The translations under genes and the position numbers were made by a program. Below are positions 2,509-57,890 of a DNA stretch of 64,000 bases, one piece after another; the first letter of the stretch is position 1, and every line of letters begins with the position of its first letter. The stretch covers positions 3,685,922 to 3,749,921 of the forward strand of contig OY811986.1 of assembly GCA_963681505.1 (NCBI GenBank). Direction: 5' to 3'. The notes beneath the pieces were generated by a model. That model worked only from the letters and a program-made list of their open reading frames with translations, had not been told where the DNA came from and searched no databases. This DNA comes from Eunapius fragilis (taxonomy: Eukaryota; Porifera; Demospongiae; Spongillida; Spongillidae).

Positions 2509-2801
2509 ACAAGTAAATAAAAACATTCTCTCTGAGAAAGTTGGTGGGATATAGGTTTTGCAGGCAAATAGTATACTGGCGTAAAAAGCAAGGAAACAAG
2601 TATTATCAGAAGGGAAAATGTAATAGTCCTATATTTAGCACACTTCGACTAAGGCATATGCTGTTTCTTTGCTAAATATAGGACTATTACATTTTCCCTT
2701 CTGATAAAACTTGTTTCCTTGCTTTTTACACCAGTATACTATTTGCCTGCAAAACTTATATCCCACCAACTTTCTCAGAGAGAACGTTTTTATTTACTTG
2801 T
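2509..2801. mobile_element. palindromic MITE, family C copy 1
   Basis: A ~290 bp near-perfect palindrome. The left end reads CAAGTAAATAAAAAC and the right end GTTTTTATTTACTTG; the inner arms share AGTCCTATATTTAGC and its complement around a short loop near 2650. Other copies: 2 at 3918, half copies at 8650 and 44903, full copies at 53029 and 56275. It has no ORF, so it is non-autonomous. It lies just left of a copy of leader repeat R, the order seen in the other composites. Confidence 0.9.
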
Positions 2802-2899
2802 TTCCTTAATTTTTTAAACACCCAAATAGGTACTTTTGCTTAATTAGACTTGATAAGACCGTATATAGGCTTTTAGACTTTTGTGTATCAAAGCCTAAA

Positions 2900-3237
2900 A
2901 GCGAATCCTCCAGCAAATTCTAAAGCTATTGGTGCAATTTTCATTGCTTAAAAGTGTTCCTGTCCCGAGTTATGAGTTCCCAAGAAGAAGCAGAAGCAGA
3001 AGCAGACGACCCGCCCATTATTTTTGGAAGGGGAACGAGGACAGCAGTTTTTTCCGTTCTCAACAACCACGCGGTTCTACGACGTGAAACAAAAACGAAA
3101 CTACTCAGTTTTGACTTCTAGATCGATTGCCGCAGCAAGTTAGACGATCCGATCGTCGGGAGCGAAGCTACAATAGGGTCGCGGGATTTTAATTAATTCA
3201 TAGTCGGGGTCAAAACCTATATGGAAGTCTCTAGCGA
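2900..3237 (-). repeat. leader repeat R, copy 1 (RAEP composite)
   Basis: Homologous to 53740-54030 and 57295-57612. Shared blocks are AAGTGTTCCT.TCCCGAGTTATG, AAACNAANACGAAACT and ACGATCCGATCGTCGGGAG. Read on the minus strand, R would lie upstream of the RAEP repeat exon; here that exon is missing and R abuts MITE C. A short hairpin with an 8-9 bp stem, GAAGTCTC/GAGACTTC, lies at its outer edge (about 3222-3243). Confidence 0.75.
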
Positions 3238-3250
3238 GACTTCCGATACA

Positions 3251-3818: not shown

Positions 3819-3917
3819 CATTGGAACCTTTCTTTCTTGGAGATTTGCAATTTATTTTTGTGATGTGTTGACAAGCTACTTCTAGATCTGCTCACCTAGA
3901 GTTGGAAGCCTTGCATA

Positions 3918-4157
3918 CAAGTAATGAAGACATTCTCTATGAGAAAATTGATGGCATAAAGGATTGGATGGCAAAAAGGAAGGAAACAAGGATCTACTAA
4001 TAAGGTGTAATGTAATACGCACACAGTTGAACAACATAACGTCCTACAAATGTGCTAAATATAGGACTATTCCCATATTATTTCCTTTTTACACCACTAT
4101 TGCCTTTCAATCCTATATACCAACTTTCTCAAAAAGAATGGTTTTATTACTTGTTCC
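3918..4157. mobile_element. MITE family C copy 2, decayed
   Basis: Matches the family at both ends (ACATTCTCTATGAGAAA near 3930, AACTTTCTCAAAAAGAATG near 4122) and at the inner word ATAGGACTATTCC. The arms are shorter and more diverged than in copies 1, 4 and 5. Confidence 0.75.
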
Positions 4158-4572
4158 ATCAGTTTTTTTTTCGTCATGAGATAGAACATACCGGTAACTA
4201 TATTTAATTTAGAGTATTTTGAAATACGACCATTAGTGGTGCTACACAGTTTAGGAGGGTATACTGTGTGGAGGAGGGGGGTGTCTTATGGATGGAATGG
4301 TAAAAAGGGCCGGGGAAGGAGATCCCTACGTAGATGTGTGACATCTATGGAAGAGGGGGTGCCTTGATGTGGAGGACAAGGGGCACCTGCTGTGAAGAGG
4401 GTGGGGAATCCCTACTGGTGGAGATGGAAGCCCTGATGTGGTGGAGCAAGCAGCATGCATCCATTGGTGGCCTTGTAGTGGCATGGGTGTTCCATCATGA
4501 AGGGGATGGGATGCATGGAGCTAGCGAGATGTCCACTGGTGGAGGTCCGGACACAGCTTTGTCAAGACCACC

Positions 4573-8465: not shown

Positions 8466-8649
8466 CCTGTGTCAGAAAAGAAAAATGTTAATCAGCGGAC
8501 CTTTTATATTTTAAACCTCCCCCAAATTTTGGCCGTTTTCACCCACTTTACTCGTGGACGCGGTGTTAATTCATTTTTATTATTATAATTATAAAAATAA
8601 AATAAAATAAAATAATTAACATTAAAAAATAAAAATAAAAATAAAATTA

Positions 8650-8736
8650 AAAAGCTTCTCAATGAGAAAGTTGTTGGGATATAGGATTCGAAGGCAATGG
8701 TGGTGCAAAAAGCAAGGAAACAAGGGTCTGTAATGT
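8650..8736. mobile_element. half copy of MITE family C
   Basis: Contains AATGAGAAAGTTGTTGGGATATAGG-type sequence and AAGCAAGGAAACAAGGGTCT, the left-arm sequence of the family, with no matching right arm. It lies in the putative intron of the RAEP gene, the same relative place as in the 53 kb and 56 kb copies. Confidence 0.8.
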
Positions 8737-8880
8737 GCTTTTTTCATGCACATTTTCAGATGCGTATTTGATGTAGTTGATGATCGTAATTGACCGTAAT
8801 GTTCAGCCACCAATGTCATAATTGTAAACCAAGCTTAGTAATAGTAGGTAGCTACTGGTACAAGCACAAATACGACATAC

Positions 8881-9450
8881 CTTTGAGTGACCTTAACTCT
8901 TTTCGCCAAGCGAGCACGTTCGGGACTCTGCCAATATCGTTGTCTTTTAGCAACCCTTTCCTTTTCAGGCTCCGCTCGATACCTGGCGCGTCGAGAGGTC
9001 CGTTTCTTTACAGGCTCTGCTCGATACATCTCACGTTCAGAGGCCCGTTTCTTTTCAGGCTCTGCTCGATACATCTCACGTTCAGAGGCCCGTTTCTTTT
9101 CAGGCTCCGCTCGATACCTGGCGCATCGTGAGGTCCGTTTCTTTTCAGGCTCCGCTTGATACCTGGCGCATCGAGAGGTCCGTTTCTTTTCAGGCTCTGC
9201 TCGATAAATCTCACGTTCAGAGGCCCGTTTCTTTTCAGGCTCTGCTCGATACTTCTCACGTTCAGAGGCCCGTTTCTTTTCAGGCTCTGCTCGATACTTC
9301 TCACGTTCAGAGGCCCATTTATTTTCAGGCTCTGCTCGATACTTCTCACGTTCAGAGGCCCGTTTCTTTTCAGGCTCTGCTCGATACTTCAATTCTCACG
9401 TTCAGAGGCCCGTTTCTTTTCAGGCTCTGCTCGATACTTCTCCATATGGA
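8881..9450 (-). CDS. RAEP repeat exon, longest array
   Basis: The minus strand encodes about eleven units of a 15-residue repeat, KYRAEPEKKRASERE with variants (RYQAEPEKKRTSRCA), then a non-repeat end, YWQSPERARLAKRVKVTQR. The frame closes at a consensus donor, AAAG/GTATGTCG, at 8880. The first unit (about 9394-9446) is displaced from the rest by a 4-base insertion. The DNA repeat period is 45 bp. The units carry alternating basic and acidic residues and probably form a long charged helix. There is no enzymatic motif, and the function is unknown. The intron just past the donor matches the 53 kb copy (ACTAAGCTTGGTTTACAAT). Confidence 0.75.
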
Positions 9451-19559: not shown

Positions 19560-20490
19560 ACTCCCTCCCTCCCTCCCCCCTCACTTCCTCCCACTCCCCC
19601 TCCCTCCCTCCCCCACTCCCCCTCCCTCCCCCCACTCCCCCTCCCTCCCCCCACTCCCCCTCCCTCCCCCACTCCCCCTCCCTCCCCCCACTCCCCCTCC
19701 CTCCCCCACCCCCTCCCTCCCCCCCTCCCTCCCCCACTCCCCCTCCCTCCCCCCACTCCCCCTCCCTCCCCCCACTCCCCCTCCCTCCCCCCACTCCCCC
19801 TCCCTCCCCCCACTCCCCCTCCCTCCCCCCACTCCCCCTCCCTCCCCCCACTCCCCCTCCCTCCCCCCACTCCCCCTCCCTCCCCCCACTCCCCCTCCCT
19901 CCCCCCACTCCCCCTCCCTCCCCCCACTCCCCCTCCCTCCCCCCACTCCCCCTCCCTCCCCCCACTCCCCCTCCCTCCCCCCACTCCCCCTCCCTCCCCC
20001 CACTCCCCCTCCCTCCCCCCACTCCCCCTCCCTCCCCCCACTCCCCTCCCTCCCCCCACTCCCCCTCCCTCCCCCCACTCCCCCTCCCTCCCCCCACTCC
20101 CCCTCCCTCCCCCCACTCCCCCTCCCTCCCCCCACTCCCCCTCCCTCCCCCCACTCCCCTCCCTCCCCCCACTCCCCCTCCCTCCCCCCACTCCCCCTCC
20201 CTCCCCCCACTCCCCCTCCCTCCCCCCACTCCCCCTCCCTCCCCCCACTCCCCCTCCCTCCCCCCACTCCCCCTCCCTCCCCCCACTCCCCCTCCCTCCC
20301 CCCACTCCCCCTCCCTCCCCCCACTCCCCCTCCCTCCCCCCACTCCCCTCCCTCCCCCCACTCCCCCTCCCTCCCCCCACTCCCCCTCCCTCCCCCCACT
20401 CCCCCTCCCTCCCCCCACTCCCCCTCCCTCCCCCCACTCCCCCTCCCTCCCCCCACTCCCCCTCCCTCCCCCTCCCTCCACTCCCCCTCC
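19560..20490. repeat. ~19-bp C/T minisatellite, ~48 copies
   Basis: Tandem unit CCCCACTCCCCCTCCCTCC; the complement, GGAGGGAGGGGGAGTGGGG, has G runs able to form G-quadruplexes. Variant 18-bp units at about 20040, 20155 and 20343 hint at higher-order duplication. Very long Pro/Leu/Ser and Gly/Glu/Trp ORFs here are artefacts of a period that is not a multiple of three. It lies between usherin-like exons. Confidence 0.95.
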
Positions 20491-44902: not shown

Positions 44903-44982
44903 GTTTTACACCACCATTGCCTTCAAATCCTATATGCCACCAACTTTCTCATAGAGAATGTTTTTTATTTACTTGTTATTAA
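44903..44982. mobile_element. half copy of MITE family C
   Basis: Right-arm sequence only: TTTTACACCACCATTGCC ... CTCATAGAGAATG ... TTTATTTACTTG. Confidence 0.85.
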
Positions 44983-52278: not shown

Positions 52279-54797
52279 TTAAGTACTTTCACTATACGTC
52301 AGGAGTACTGCACCTGGATATACCTTTTCTTCACCTTCATCTACCACTCTAGAACAAACCAGCTTGGGAGTTTGCCATTGCAGAGGATTCAGCTCTGCAA
52401 TATTACATTTAAGTGATTTAACTGATTTGAGCACTGCCTTTATGGCACTAACAATGTTCAAATGGTCATCTTGGAGACATAAGCATAGACATGAAGGTGG
52501 CTTCACATACAGTGCTTCTCCTATGAGCATTTTGGTGTGTCTCCTATTTTGAAGATTAGCTCGGTCAACACACTTTATTATTTTATCTTCTACAAGTGTC
52601 TTAAGGTGACTGATGTATGCACCATATTTATCAATAAACCTTTGCAGAGCATTTCTCTTGCGACTAATCCATCTGCTTCCCTGGCACCTGACTGGCAAAT
52701 TTGGAAACTCAAAAACCTCTTTAAGATCATCTACAATATCTGAAAGCTCTCTTGTTTTTTTGGGCGACTTTGAGTAAAGATAATGAAGCCGAAGAAGCAT
52801 GTCATCGATCTCCTGGAAGAGTTTGCTTGAGAATGTATCTTTACATGCAAGTTCTAAGCGGTGTGCAAAGCATGCACCATGCCCAAAACATCCAGGGACA
52901 ACCTCGGTATTTCTCCATCATACCATTTTGTTCAGATACATCACAAATGGGCCGTCAGTCCCACCACCAATTAAAATTGACTTACCTTGCAGAACACTGC
53001 TTTTGTCAAGGACATTTGTGACTCCCAGTAATTAAAAAACCTTCTCTATGAGAAAGTTGGTGGGATATAGGATATGAAGGCAATGGTGGTGTAAAAAGCA
53101 AGGAAACAAGGGTCTGTAATTGTTAGGGAATATGTCATAGTCCTATATTTAGCCCGTTTGTAGCATATATTTCCTGTGCTAAATATAGGACTATGACATT
53201 TTCCCTTACTATTACAGACCCTTGTTTCCTTGCTTTTTACACCACCATTGCCTTCAAATCCTATATCCCACCAACTTTCTCATTGAGAAGGTTTTTATTT
53301 ACTTGTTTCATCCATTTTTTTTGTTCATGCACGATGCGTAATCGATGATGCGTAATTGATCGTAATTGATCCGTAATGTTCAGCCACCAATGTCATATTG
53401 TAAACCAAGCTTAGTAAGAGTACATAGCTACATTACATACCTTTGAATAACTTTATCGATGGCCACGTTTGGTTTTGCAGGGTACGCTTAGCCTTCCCGT
53501 ACCGCACTCTCTTCGCCAAGCAAGCAGATTCAGGGCTCTCCCCATAACGTTGCCTTTTAGCGGACCGTTTTTTCTCTGGAACTTCTTGATACAGCTCGAG
53601 TTCAGCAGTATTTTGGGTCTGCTTGATACCACAAGATATCTAAAATGTTATCTAATTATGCGTTTTACATTTACCGTATAGTCAATTGTTTACCTAAATA
53701 TAACATCGGCTATTTTATATGAAAGTGGCTCTCCCAGCCTATTCTGAAGCTATTGGTGAAATTTTCATTGTTTAAAAGTGTTCCTATCCCGAGTTATGCG
53801 TTGCCAAGAAGGAGAAGTAGACCCTGTTCCGGGACTGGGTACGAAGACGGGCAGTATCCTTTTGTTCTCTAGAAAGGCGCGCAGTTCTATTACATAAAAC
53901 AAAGACGAAACTGCTCATTTTTGACTTCTAGTTCAATTGCTATAACAAACTAAACGATCCGATCGTCGGGAGTCTTGTTAGATACAGGTCGCATATTTTT
54001 AATGAGATTAATAGTTGGGGTTAAAACTTTCGATAAGAGCCCTGCCAAGGCACTCAAGTAGTCCATCTGAATCAGCTTTCCTGGGTTCTTGCACACATAA
54101 AAACCATATGTGTTAATTTCTTCAGCCATTGTATTTTTAGTGCAATGTAAAATTACAATCATTTCCTCAACATTTCCTTGATCAGTGAAACCATCCATTA
54201 AGAAGCTGTGGTATTTGGAACTGGAGAGAGACTGAAGGAAATCGTGACACTGTGCCTCAGCTATGACATGGCTAAACATCTTGGCAGAATCCTTGGTTTT
54301 GTACATTTGACCAAGGTCCACCCCATGCCTTTATTCCGGCTCGTGGAGAGCAGAGTATTTTGCAAAAGGATTACATTCTTTGCCCATAAGATAGCAAATA
54401 TCGAACTTCTTGTTAATGCACTCTTGAATTTCCTTATCCATGACGAGGAGGCTTCATGCAATAGGTGAGTATTCTGTGATGGACTTTGAAGACGCTTTTC
54501 TCATTTGGATCACAGCTACGTTGTGTTGGTTGCTTTTAGCATGGTCAATAACAAAGTTAATCTTCTGATTAGTTGAACCACTTACCCAAGCATTTGAGTA
54601 TCTTCGTTTCCCCTACATGCATGGCACCACAATGTTTGTACACAGTTATCGTCAGTGTCACAGCGTAGCCATGACATCGTCTGGTAATTACGCTCATACT
54701 GCGTTTGCCTCTTCCTGAATGTGCTGAGGCTAACTTTACGTCGCTTTGGCGCAGCATCAGCAGAATCCTTCTGAAGCACTGTCCTCTTCACAGCCAC
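52279..54797 (-). pseudogene. hAT-family transposase (ZNF862/KIAA1586-like), interrupted
   Basis: The minus-strand order begins with a BED-type region (SWLRCDTDDNCVQTLWCHAC, then YSNAWVSGSTNQKINFVIDH) and LTRSSIFAILWAKN. It continues with the RNase-H-fold start YHSFLMDGFTDQGNVEEM (54240-54150); LGVTNVLDKSSVLQG and GGGTDGPFV (about 53028-52950); and CFAHRLELACKDTFSS, RLHYLYSKSPKKTREL, QGSRWISRKRNALQRF to 52279. These are hallmarks of hAT-derived transposases close to ZNF862 and KIAA1586. The gene is cut between LSALAGLLSK and LGVTNVL by a 1 kb RAEP composite (53029-54028), and has several frame changes and a stop near the N-terminus. The hAT dimerisation tail is not seen. Confidence 0.75.
53029..54028 (-). 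mobile_element. RAEP composite element inserted in the hAT gene
   Basis: Minus-strand order: leader R (54028-53740), RAEP-type exon (about 53640-53441), intron piece (53440-53312), palindromic MITE C (53311-53029). The exon is diverged: VPEKKRSAKRQRYGESPESA and a basic end, closing at CAAAG/GTATGTAATG. The intron matches the 8.8 kb copy (ACTAAGCTTGGTTTACAAT, GACATTGGTGGCTGAACAT). The whole block is foreign to the hAT gene, whose coding resumes on both sides. This is the best evidence that R, exon, intron and MITE travel together. Confidence 0.75.
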
Positions 54798-56274: not shown

Positions 56275-56568
56275 ACAAGTAAATAAAAAACATTCTCTAT
56301 GAGAAAGTTGGTGGCATATAGGATTTGATGGTAATGGTGGTGTAAAAGGAAGGAAACAAGGGTCTAAGGGAAAATGGAATAGTCCTATATTTAGCACACG
56401 AACAACATACTATATCCTACATATAGAAATGTGCTAAATATAGGACTATTCCATTTTCCCTTATTATTAGACCCTTGTTTCCTTCCTTTTTACACCACCA
56501 TTGCCTTCAAATCCTATATGCCACCAACTTTCTCATAGAGAATGTTTTTTATTCACTTGTTTCATTGT
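56275..56568. mobile_element. MITE family C copy with RAEP composite 3
   Basis: A ~290 bp palindrome: CAAGTAAATAAAAAACATTC on the left and its complement ending CTTGTTTC on the right. The inner arms are ATAGTCCTATATTTAGCAC and its complement. It sits about 85 bp past the exon donor, inside the presumed intron. Confidence 0.9.
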
Positions 56569-56653
56569 TTGTTTATTCATACCCGATTATGAGCCGTAGC
56601 ATGTTAAGTAATCCATCTTGATATAAGAGGGAGGTTGTAAAGGTACGACATAC

Positions 56654-56970
56654 CTTTGAGTAACCTTAACTCTTTTCACCGAGCGAGTTGCATGTTCAGG
56701 ACTATGGCAATATCACTGTCTTTTAGCAGCCCGTTCCTTTTCAGGATCTGCTCGATACCATGCACGTCGAGAGGTCCGTTCCTTTTTAGGATCTGCTTGA
56801 TACCTTGCGCGTCGAGAGGTCCGTTTCTTTTCAGGCTCTGCTCGATAGTTTTCACGTTGAGAGGCCCAGTTCTTTTCAGGCTCTGCTTTGTATTTTCGCT
56901 CGGGCTGAATCTAAGTTTTGAGGTACTTAGCTCGTCGTTTGGCTTTCTTCTTTTCCTGACGTGAAGGCAT
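56654..56970 (-). pseudogene. RAEP repeat exon, copy with intact start
   Basis: ATG at 56970 gives MPSRQEKKKAKRRAKYLKT, the best preserved start of the family. An in-frame stop follows at once, then four 15-residue units (YKAEPEKNWASQREN, YRAEPEKKRTSRRAR, YQADPKKERTSRRAW, YRADPEKERAAKRQ), a second stop, and the conserved end SVKRVKVTQR with donor AAAG/GTATGTCG at 56653. This copy is dead but shows the exon's full architecture: basic head, repeat array, basic tail, splice donor. Confidence 0.7.
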
Positions 56971-57294
56971 TTTGAGAAAAACAACTTCACTAAGTTACAA
57001 AGAGCGTCAAACCTACAACGATCGAAGCACAAGAATGATTATAGTATGCACGTGCATGTTATTAAATACATGTAGTGCCCAATTTGCAAAACCGGATACA
57101 TGCCACAGTTAATTACCACTACGTGTAGTGCCCAGATTTGATTACATCATGTACACTAGTACTTGTATAAAGAGCAAAGTATGACCTATCCGAGTCGTAT
57201 CAATGCAGTAAGCTTAACTATACGTGATTTGCTAACTCAACTACCGATATATGTCATGTAGCCTCGAGAGGTTTTGACCACAGAAGCGAGAATG
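56971..57294. promoter_or_regulatory. spacer between leader R and the RAEP exon
   Basis: No ORF. By position it would be the promoter or 5' UTR of the RAEP gene on the minus strand. No element is clear enough to name. Confidence 0.25.
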
Positions 57295-57612
57295 CCAACG
57301 AATTCTGAAGCCATTGGTGTGATTTTCATTTCTTAAAAGTGTTCCTATCCCGAGTTATGCGTGGTCAAGAACAAGAAGAAGAAGAAGAACGAGAAATACG
57401 TGGGACTGGGTATGAGTTTGGAAAATAGTTTTGTTCTCTACAACCCCGCGGTTTTGTGACATCTAAAAAACACACGAAACTGCTTGTTATTGCCTTCTTG
57501 TATGATGACGACAACAAAGTAAGCCATCCACTCGTCAGGAGTCTTGTCAGAAGCGGGTCGCGTTTTTGTAATGACATTCATAATTGGGGTCAAATCCTAC
57601 ATGAGTTACTAA
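57295..57612 (-). repeat. leader repeat R, copy 3
   Basis: Shares GTGTTCCTATCCCGAGTTATG, GAAACTGCTTGTTATTGCC-like and GTCAGGAGTCTTGTCAGA-type blocks with copies 1 and 2. The outer edge carries the hairpin GAGTTAC/GTAACTC, different in stem sequence from copy 1. Confidence 0.75.
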
Positions 57613-57890
57613 CGTAACTCTTGATAGCTTAATTGGAATGTTATCTGTATGGTTTTTTAAATGCATATAAATGGAAGCCATGCTAAAATTCGGCATAGTC
57701 TTGTCGACTAATTATTAAGTATGTATGCTGTTGTTCAATCGGCTTTGTAAGATGTCCTTGAACGGATGAGAAGCTGTTGAAAGAGTCGAGCATCATGAAT
57801 TTACTCATCATATACCGCTCCTGCATAGCGCATGTTCAGTGAAAAACGTAACCTGGTTCCTATAATTGTTTTCAGCTCTAGTTATTTTTA
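57613..57890. other. no gene recognised
   Basis: AT-rich spacer between composite 3 and the next foldback. Confidence 0.4.

Follow-up and report, generated by a model that had tools for sequence, protein, structure and literature searches.

The block at 53.0–54.0 kb of the window, by which we mean the whole analysed stretch of 64,000 nucleotides from the demosponge Eunapius fragilis, can be assigned with a probability of about 0.93 to the non-autonomous Helitrons (rolling-circle transposons), and it most probably arose by internal deletion from Rep/helicase-coding Helitrons of the same genome. The assignment is made because of the ends of the block, its insertion site and its homology to Rep/helicase-coding relatives. 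An initial annotation of this DNA had proposed that a leader R, a charged repeat exon, an intron and a palindromic MITE behave as one mobile unit which matches no element class. That these parts form one unit is supported by the recurring order and edges of the copies and, in a sister family, by the way in which the two ends are linked and by an A|T empty site. The missing class, however, is supplied by the ends, the insertion site and the Rep/helicase relatives, and the palindrome is the element's own 3′ terminus instead of a separate MITE. What seemed an unclassifiable composite thereby becomes a Helitron family in which the ends are mapped, a sister family provides an exact empty site and the long Rep/helicase relatives possess a repeat-rich first exon.

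Structure of the element and further copies in the window

Comparison of copies places the whole element at 53026..54033 on the minus strand, with the 5′ end at 54033 and the 3′ end at 53026, and thereby shifts the limits of 53029 and 54028 which had been proposed for the block. Read along the minus strand, the unit starts with TCGGAAG and finishes with a hairpin followed by CTTG; in between, the 5′ TC and hairpin are followed by R, a residual exon 1 including its splice donor, a stretch of intron and the palindromic 3′ terminus. R (53741..54033, minus strand) represents the 5′ terminal region, consisting of the 5′ terminus, as delimited by the 5′ end in other copies, and the putative leader of a Rep/helicase gene, a layout similar to that in the long relative L060. 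The repeat-exon remnant (53441..53640, minus strand), which is homologous to exon 1 of long Helitrons, is shortened and extends to an AAAG|GTATGT donor. Its last base is 53441, its upstream limit is approximate, and about 37 recognisable exon residues are left. The palindromic 3′ terminus (53026..53306, minus strand) comprises two arms and a short loop, with the terminal hairpin located in the outer tip. A long palindrome is thus present as annotated, but it is near-perfect and not the perfect palindrome of 290 bp that had been described, its 119-nt arms being 96% complementary and 24 nt apart.

The element is inserted into a degenerate ORF which, judged by eye, resumes on both sides of the block, as had been noted; a Pfam scan of this interrupted host ORF, a putative hAT transposase gene in the initial annotation, gave no hAT match. 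In this copy most of the 5′ hairpin is deleted and the 3′ tip is altered. The expected T is found at 54034, whereas 53026 is preceded by C instead of A. Target duplications, which had been suggested for 53029 and 54028, were not seen, the ends being located elsewhere, and as the element is of the Helitron class their absence is expected.

The order of parts recurs in the window at 56.3–57.6 kb, at 2.5–3.2 kb (without exon) and in part at 8.65–9.45 kb, in agreement with the initial annotation. The copy at 56276..57624 (minus strand, flanked by A and T) is fuller than the one at 53 kb and contains the 3′ palindrome from 56276 to about 56567, an exon with an MPSR-type start at 56654–56970, and R with the 5′ hairpin up to 57624. 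In the exon-less copy at 2510..3246 (minus strand, likewise flanked by A and T) the 5′ hairpin and R are joined to the palindromic 3′ end. The truncated copy at 8645..9442 (minus strand) lacks R and consists of half a palindrome, the intron and the longest repeat exon, whose last base is 8881. With about eleven units at 8.95–9.44 kb, this exon is the only one to which the description of up to eleven 15-residue repeats applies. Two smaller pieces are a single 3′ arm with its tip, part of one palindrome arm, at 44904..44975 (plus strand) and an old degenerate palindrome copy at 3917..4170. The window also contains, at 19561–20472, a C-rich 19-bp tandem array of about 49 copies within a strongly strand-skewed stretch.

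Copies in the genome and their flanks

At least 124 pieces in the genome (219 Mb, 24 contigs) match the 53–54 kb block, with 40 of 3505 candidates having been scored; ten of the pieces listed, including the window's own, cover at least positions 6–991 of the query. When copies were lined up with their flanks, most of them exhibited a common outer edge at each side and unlike flanks beyond it. Even the near-identical copies L066–L068 occupy different flanks. Flanking bases were counted for 23 of the 28 compared rows, leaving out L006, L024, the window's own copy (L001) and both window rows. In palindrome-first orientation an A adjoins 20 of 21 readable 3′ tips and a T adjoins all 18 readable 5′ tips. 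The 5′ end accordingly starts with TC beside a host A, as in Helitrons, and the 3′ end is CTTG and does not have the CTRR form of canonical Helitron1 elements.

In the genome, 938 occurrences of the R-family 5′ terminus were counted at up to three mismatches in 44 positions, and 1075 of the 3′ tip at up to three mismatches in 33, where one palindrome can count twice. Among six loci picked by the 5′ end of R alone, five contained the palindrome and none the exon; at the remaining one (L065) no palindrome was found within 1.35 kb. A candidate R-plus-exon copy without palindrome (L079 and L080) turned out to be interrupted, or bordered, by a further non-autonomous Helitron that has a palindrome of its own. 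Between R and the 3′ palindrome, the young copy L067 contains a second, distinct near-perfect palindrome (~130 bp, positions ~459–590).

Empty site and linkage of the ends in a sister family

The locus L062 carries a sister insert of 1404 bp, running from TCGGAACC to ATTACTTG, within the coding region of another Helitron. Its layout is like that of the window unit and includes an R-like 5′ region, the end of a repeat exon with donor, an intron and a palindrome. An exact empty site for this insert, ATTGGCTTTA|TAAAAA, is present in the uninterrupted relatives L054 and L060, which are two independent loci (L039 is the same locus as L060). These relatives run GGCTTTA|TAAAAA, and several more also run through the site by their coordinates. 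The sister-family insertion thus occurred at an A|T target without target duplication, as established from one insert with an exact empty site. This site is decisive, because the A which in most copies (palindrome-first orientation) stands beside CTTG could otherwise be counted as part of the element. The search for empty sites, which had been proposed as a check, therefore succeeded for the sister insert, but yielded none for the window's own insertion, where a relative of the host ORF is 70% identical and its alignment stops short of the junction. In four Helitron ORFs on different contigs or at different positions (L048–L051) the sister-family insertion is found at the identical place, and the interrupted Helitron therefore seems to have been copied together with its insert.

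Co-occurrence of the ends, another proposed check, was counted on two contigs by exact matching, which makes the resulting numbers lower bounds. From 100 listed 5′ ends and 100 listed 3′ tips, 93 of the 5′ ends were used, as seven lie beyond the last listed 3′ tip. An exact-tip palindrome was located 0.3–3 kb downstream of at least 39 of these 93 exact sister-family 5′ ends, with a spacing of 1275–1460 bp in 36 of the 39 pairs, compared to 1 of 93 in the reverse-direction control. Conversely, at least 39 of 65 exact-tip palindromes on these contigs are matched by an exact 5′ end directed towards them.

Long Rep/helicase relatives and the origin of the repeat exon

Helitron_like_N has 91 matches in the genome, and four loci were read at length. 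In L060 and L061 the first ORF consists of 15-residue charged repeats, starts with MPSR and is followed by an intron of 467 and 443 bases, respectively, with a phase-2 donor, and then by an ORF of 1977 and 2020 residues. The predicted joint between exon 1 and this ORF stays open in both. According to Pfam, both long ORFs match Helitron_like_N and PIF1 above the cut-off and also DUF6570 and OTU, the OTU match of L060 being below its cut-off; no endonuclease family is listed for the two long ORFs scanned. The 5′ end of the long relatives is of the same type as that of the window unit. The 5′ boundary of L060 is sharp against L069 (A|TCGGAACC), and the sister insert in L062 is 88% identical to the 5′ end of L060 over 533 bp. 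A second group of Helitron_like_N loci (L029–L037 and L059) matches the Pfam family far better (best E ~1e-63) than the common group, and in L059 there are two long ORFs with lengths of 1277 and 583 aa.

Compared repeat against repeat, 31 of 58 residues are identical between the window repeat exon and exon 1 of L060. The phase-2 donor is common to the two long Helitrons and to two copies in the window (at 8.6 and 56 kb). An exon-1 match lies 0–9 kb upstream on the same strand for at least 32 of the 91 Helitron_like_N matches; among the 3210 candidates of the exon-1 search 150 were scored, and 135 exon places were taken from the listed part of the 237 matches, overlapping rows being left out. 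As the first exon of the relatives is homologous and the donor phase agrees, the repeat exon (RAEP exon) can be regarded as exon 1 of a Helitron Rep/helicase gene which was left stranded in the unit. On the basis of these sequence comparisons, R is the 5′ terminal region together with a predicted leader, and the RAEP exon is the predicted exon 1 of the Helitron transposase gene.

Exon lengths were determined in 30 copies by alignment, since a strict motif missed diverged repeats; the ends in L014, L016 and L024 were guessed. Two copies, both from the window, retain 80 and 172 residues, 22 retain 14–55, and in six the exon is unrecognisable. The exon had been described as always ending in the same GTATGT donor, which does not hold for all copies, as a donor of this type was found in 25 of the 30 copies searched. 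Most likely, the exon in the non-autonomous copies is a leftover. More generally, caution is advisable with a tandem-repeat "exon" within a mobile element, as it can be a remnant of the element's own gene.

The comparisons yielded no long Helitron whose R belongs to precisely this subfamily. For the L060-type long element, the 3′ end was not reached within about 10 kb of the 5′ end (three 5′ stretches were compared, one of which, L070, did not include the homologous position). Remnants of Helitron ORFs were sought in copies L001–L028 and in the window, where the only matches were to the translated palindrome of the palindrome-bearing L062 query. About 9.5–10 kb beyond an L060-type 5′ end, past the Rep/helicase ORF, the 99% identical loci L077 and L078 exhibit another reading frame, which starts with an acidic stretch and contains tandem repeats rich in proline; it may be cargo that the long Helitron carries.

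According to the Helitron model described in the portion of PMC4778049 consulted, a Rep/helicase supplied by a long relative elsewhere would nick the element at its TC end and would then unwind it and peel off one strand. Peeling would stop near the 3′ hairpin and CTTG, and the copied strand would be joined between A and T. For the window unit we infer mobilisation in trans, rolling-circle chemistry and splicing in vivo.

Alternative explanations for the unit

The same parts could have come together by chance nesting, in which a palindromic MITE of independent origin lies beside a repeat R and an exon from a host gene family. Such nesting would fit with the partial palindromes without R at 44904–44975 and 3917–4170 in the window, and with the up to 26 of 65 exact-tip palindromes on the two contigs which have no exact 5′ end pointing at them within 3 kb. 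It is nevertheless very improbable, as order and outer boundary are constant in the copies compared. The linkage of the ends in one direction and the sister-family empty site, which spans the whole unit exactly, lead us to reject an independent MITE combined with a host gene family. A terminal-inverted-repeat transposon or MITE which captured a host exon would account for the long inverted repeats and for a coding exon inside the unit. Here, however, the palindrome forms a single end only, no target duplication accompanies it, and the exon matches exon 1 of the Helitron gene in sequence, position and phase, which makes a capture of this kind exceedingly improbable.

The persistence of exon and donor might also have a functional reason. 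Leader, start codon, repeat exon and donor could act as a mobile first exon which, once inserted near a gene, would extend a host protein by a charged repeat tail through splicing. The frequency of the donor noted above, a recognisable exon piece in 24 of 30 copies and the agreement in phase with the Helitron genes are in line with this idea. We still consider it unlikely: of the 30 copies, 22 have a short exon and six an unrecognisable one, and the exon is missing at the six loci picked by R alone, which fits a neutral leftover. The preferred reading remains a non-autonomous Helitron carrying a remnant of its own gene.

Subterminal repeats and the palindromic 3′ end

The subterminal 5′ and 3′ sequences of the Helitron unit are inverted repeats of 11–13 bp, situated 25 nt from the 5′ end and 40–41 nt from the 3′ end. 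They co-vary across three subfamilies (ATATAGGATTTGA, ATATAGGAATC and ATATAGGTTTTG), where the inverted matches measure 13, 11 and 12 bp and occupy identical positions, compared to at most 9–11 bp for shuffled 5′ ends. As the best of 200 shuffles also reached 11 bp, the 11-bp case (L062) rests on position and co-variation. Hairpins are present at both ends, and the 3′ hairpin stops 12 nt before the 3′ terminus, as in Helitrons; folding support for the 3′ hairpin is modest, with 11 and 5 of 200 shuffles folding equally well or better.

The arms of the palindrome change together. They were compared in 43 of 45 palindromes after duplicates had been dropped (L001 is the window copy, and L055 equals L062), and their agreement was 0.89 within a copy versus 0.76 between copies. 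As many as 464 of 780 non-majority letters of one arm were found in the other arm of the same palindrome, whereas in 1000 re-pairings of arms the shared fraction was 11% on average and 22% at maximum; as the copies are related, this excess does not amount to a probability. In a tree of arms the two arms of a palindrome were sisters in only 9 of 43 cases, and a palindrome's own other arm was the nearest or tied in 16 of 43, so that arm renewal is visible between subfamilies and not copy by copy. The loop, compared in the 35 palindromes with an assignable direction relative to R, is present in both directions (244 same-direction and 98 opposite-direction pairs). By our own reading, the loops of L009, L020, L025 and L027 are flipped against those of about 25 others with the same loop, and the loop of L068 is flipped against those of the near-identical L066 and L067. 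The four flipped loops may trace to one event.

It appears conceivable, though doubtful, that the long palindrome serves as a functional 3′ terminus for replication: in the course of rolling-circle transposition the displaced strand would fold on it, one arm would be copied from the other, both arms would be renewed jointly and the loop would flip, as in those hairpin-primed genomes which likewise employ HUH Rep proteins. The scarcity of sister arms in the tree counts against this reading. Plain alternatives for the joint change of arms and the flips are the repeated birth of fresh palindromes when single 3′ ends are duplicated in inverted orientation, recombination of the two arms, selection acting on the hairpin and inversion during assembly. 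The palindrome may represent a Heltir-like doubling of the 3′ end. Together with the co-varying subterminal repeats, the palindrome in its two orientations provides a natural data set on how the 3′ end of a Helitron is recognised and copied.

Comparison with known systems

Canonical Helitrons such as Helibat (Helraiser) are characterised, in the portion of PMC4778049 consulted, by a 5′-TC, a hairpin shortly before the 3′ end, A–T insertion without target duplication and non-autonomous families, all of which are shared by the unit described here. The same portion describes a CTRR end without inverted repeats for canonical Helitrons, whereas the unit has a palindrome of about 290 bp ending with CTTG and an additional 5′ hairpin; CTTG ends are mentioned there for Helraiser products and for maize. 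With Helitron2 and Helentrons/HINEs, as far as covered by the excerpts of PMC4067079 and PMC5148889, the unit shares asymmetric subterminal inverted repeats and palindromes or hairpins at both ends. The OTU matches in the ORFs of its relatives (one below the cut-off) are a further similarity to both groups (PMC4067079, PMC5148889, in excerpt). However, Helentrons/HINEs prefer TT sites according to the same excerpts, whereas the insertion site here is A|T, and no endonuclease family was detected in the two ORFs. ATon elements of Aedes aegypti insert at AT, and Heltir of maize is named in the same source (PMC3422177, in excerpt). Compared to Heltir/ATon as described there, the double 3′ end of the unit is confined to one end, a proper 5′ end is kept and Rep/helicase relatives are present.

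In the literature searched, which covered few subscription journals, no Helitron was found described whose first exon codes for repeats or whose palindromic 3′ end flips. In adeno-associated virus a terminal palindrome occurs in two orientations, and its Rep protein is of the HUH type. These viral hairpins are a possible mechanistic parallel only, and no kinship is claimed. Among Helitrons, the family is unusual in two respects: its Helitron2-like co-varying subterminal repeats are combined with canonical A|T insertion, and its 3′ end is a near-perfect palindrome whose arms change together and whose loop is present in both orientations.
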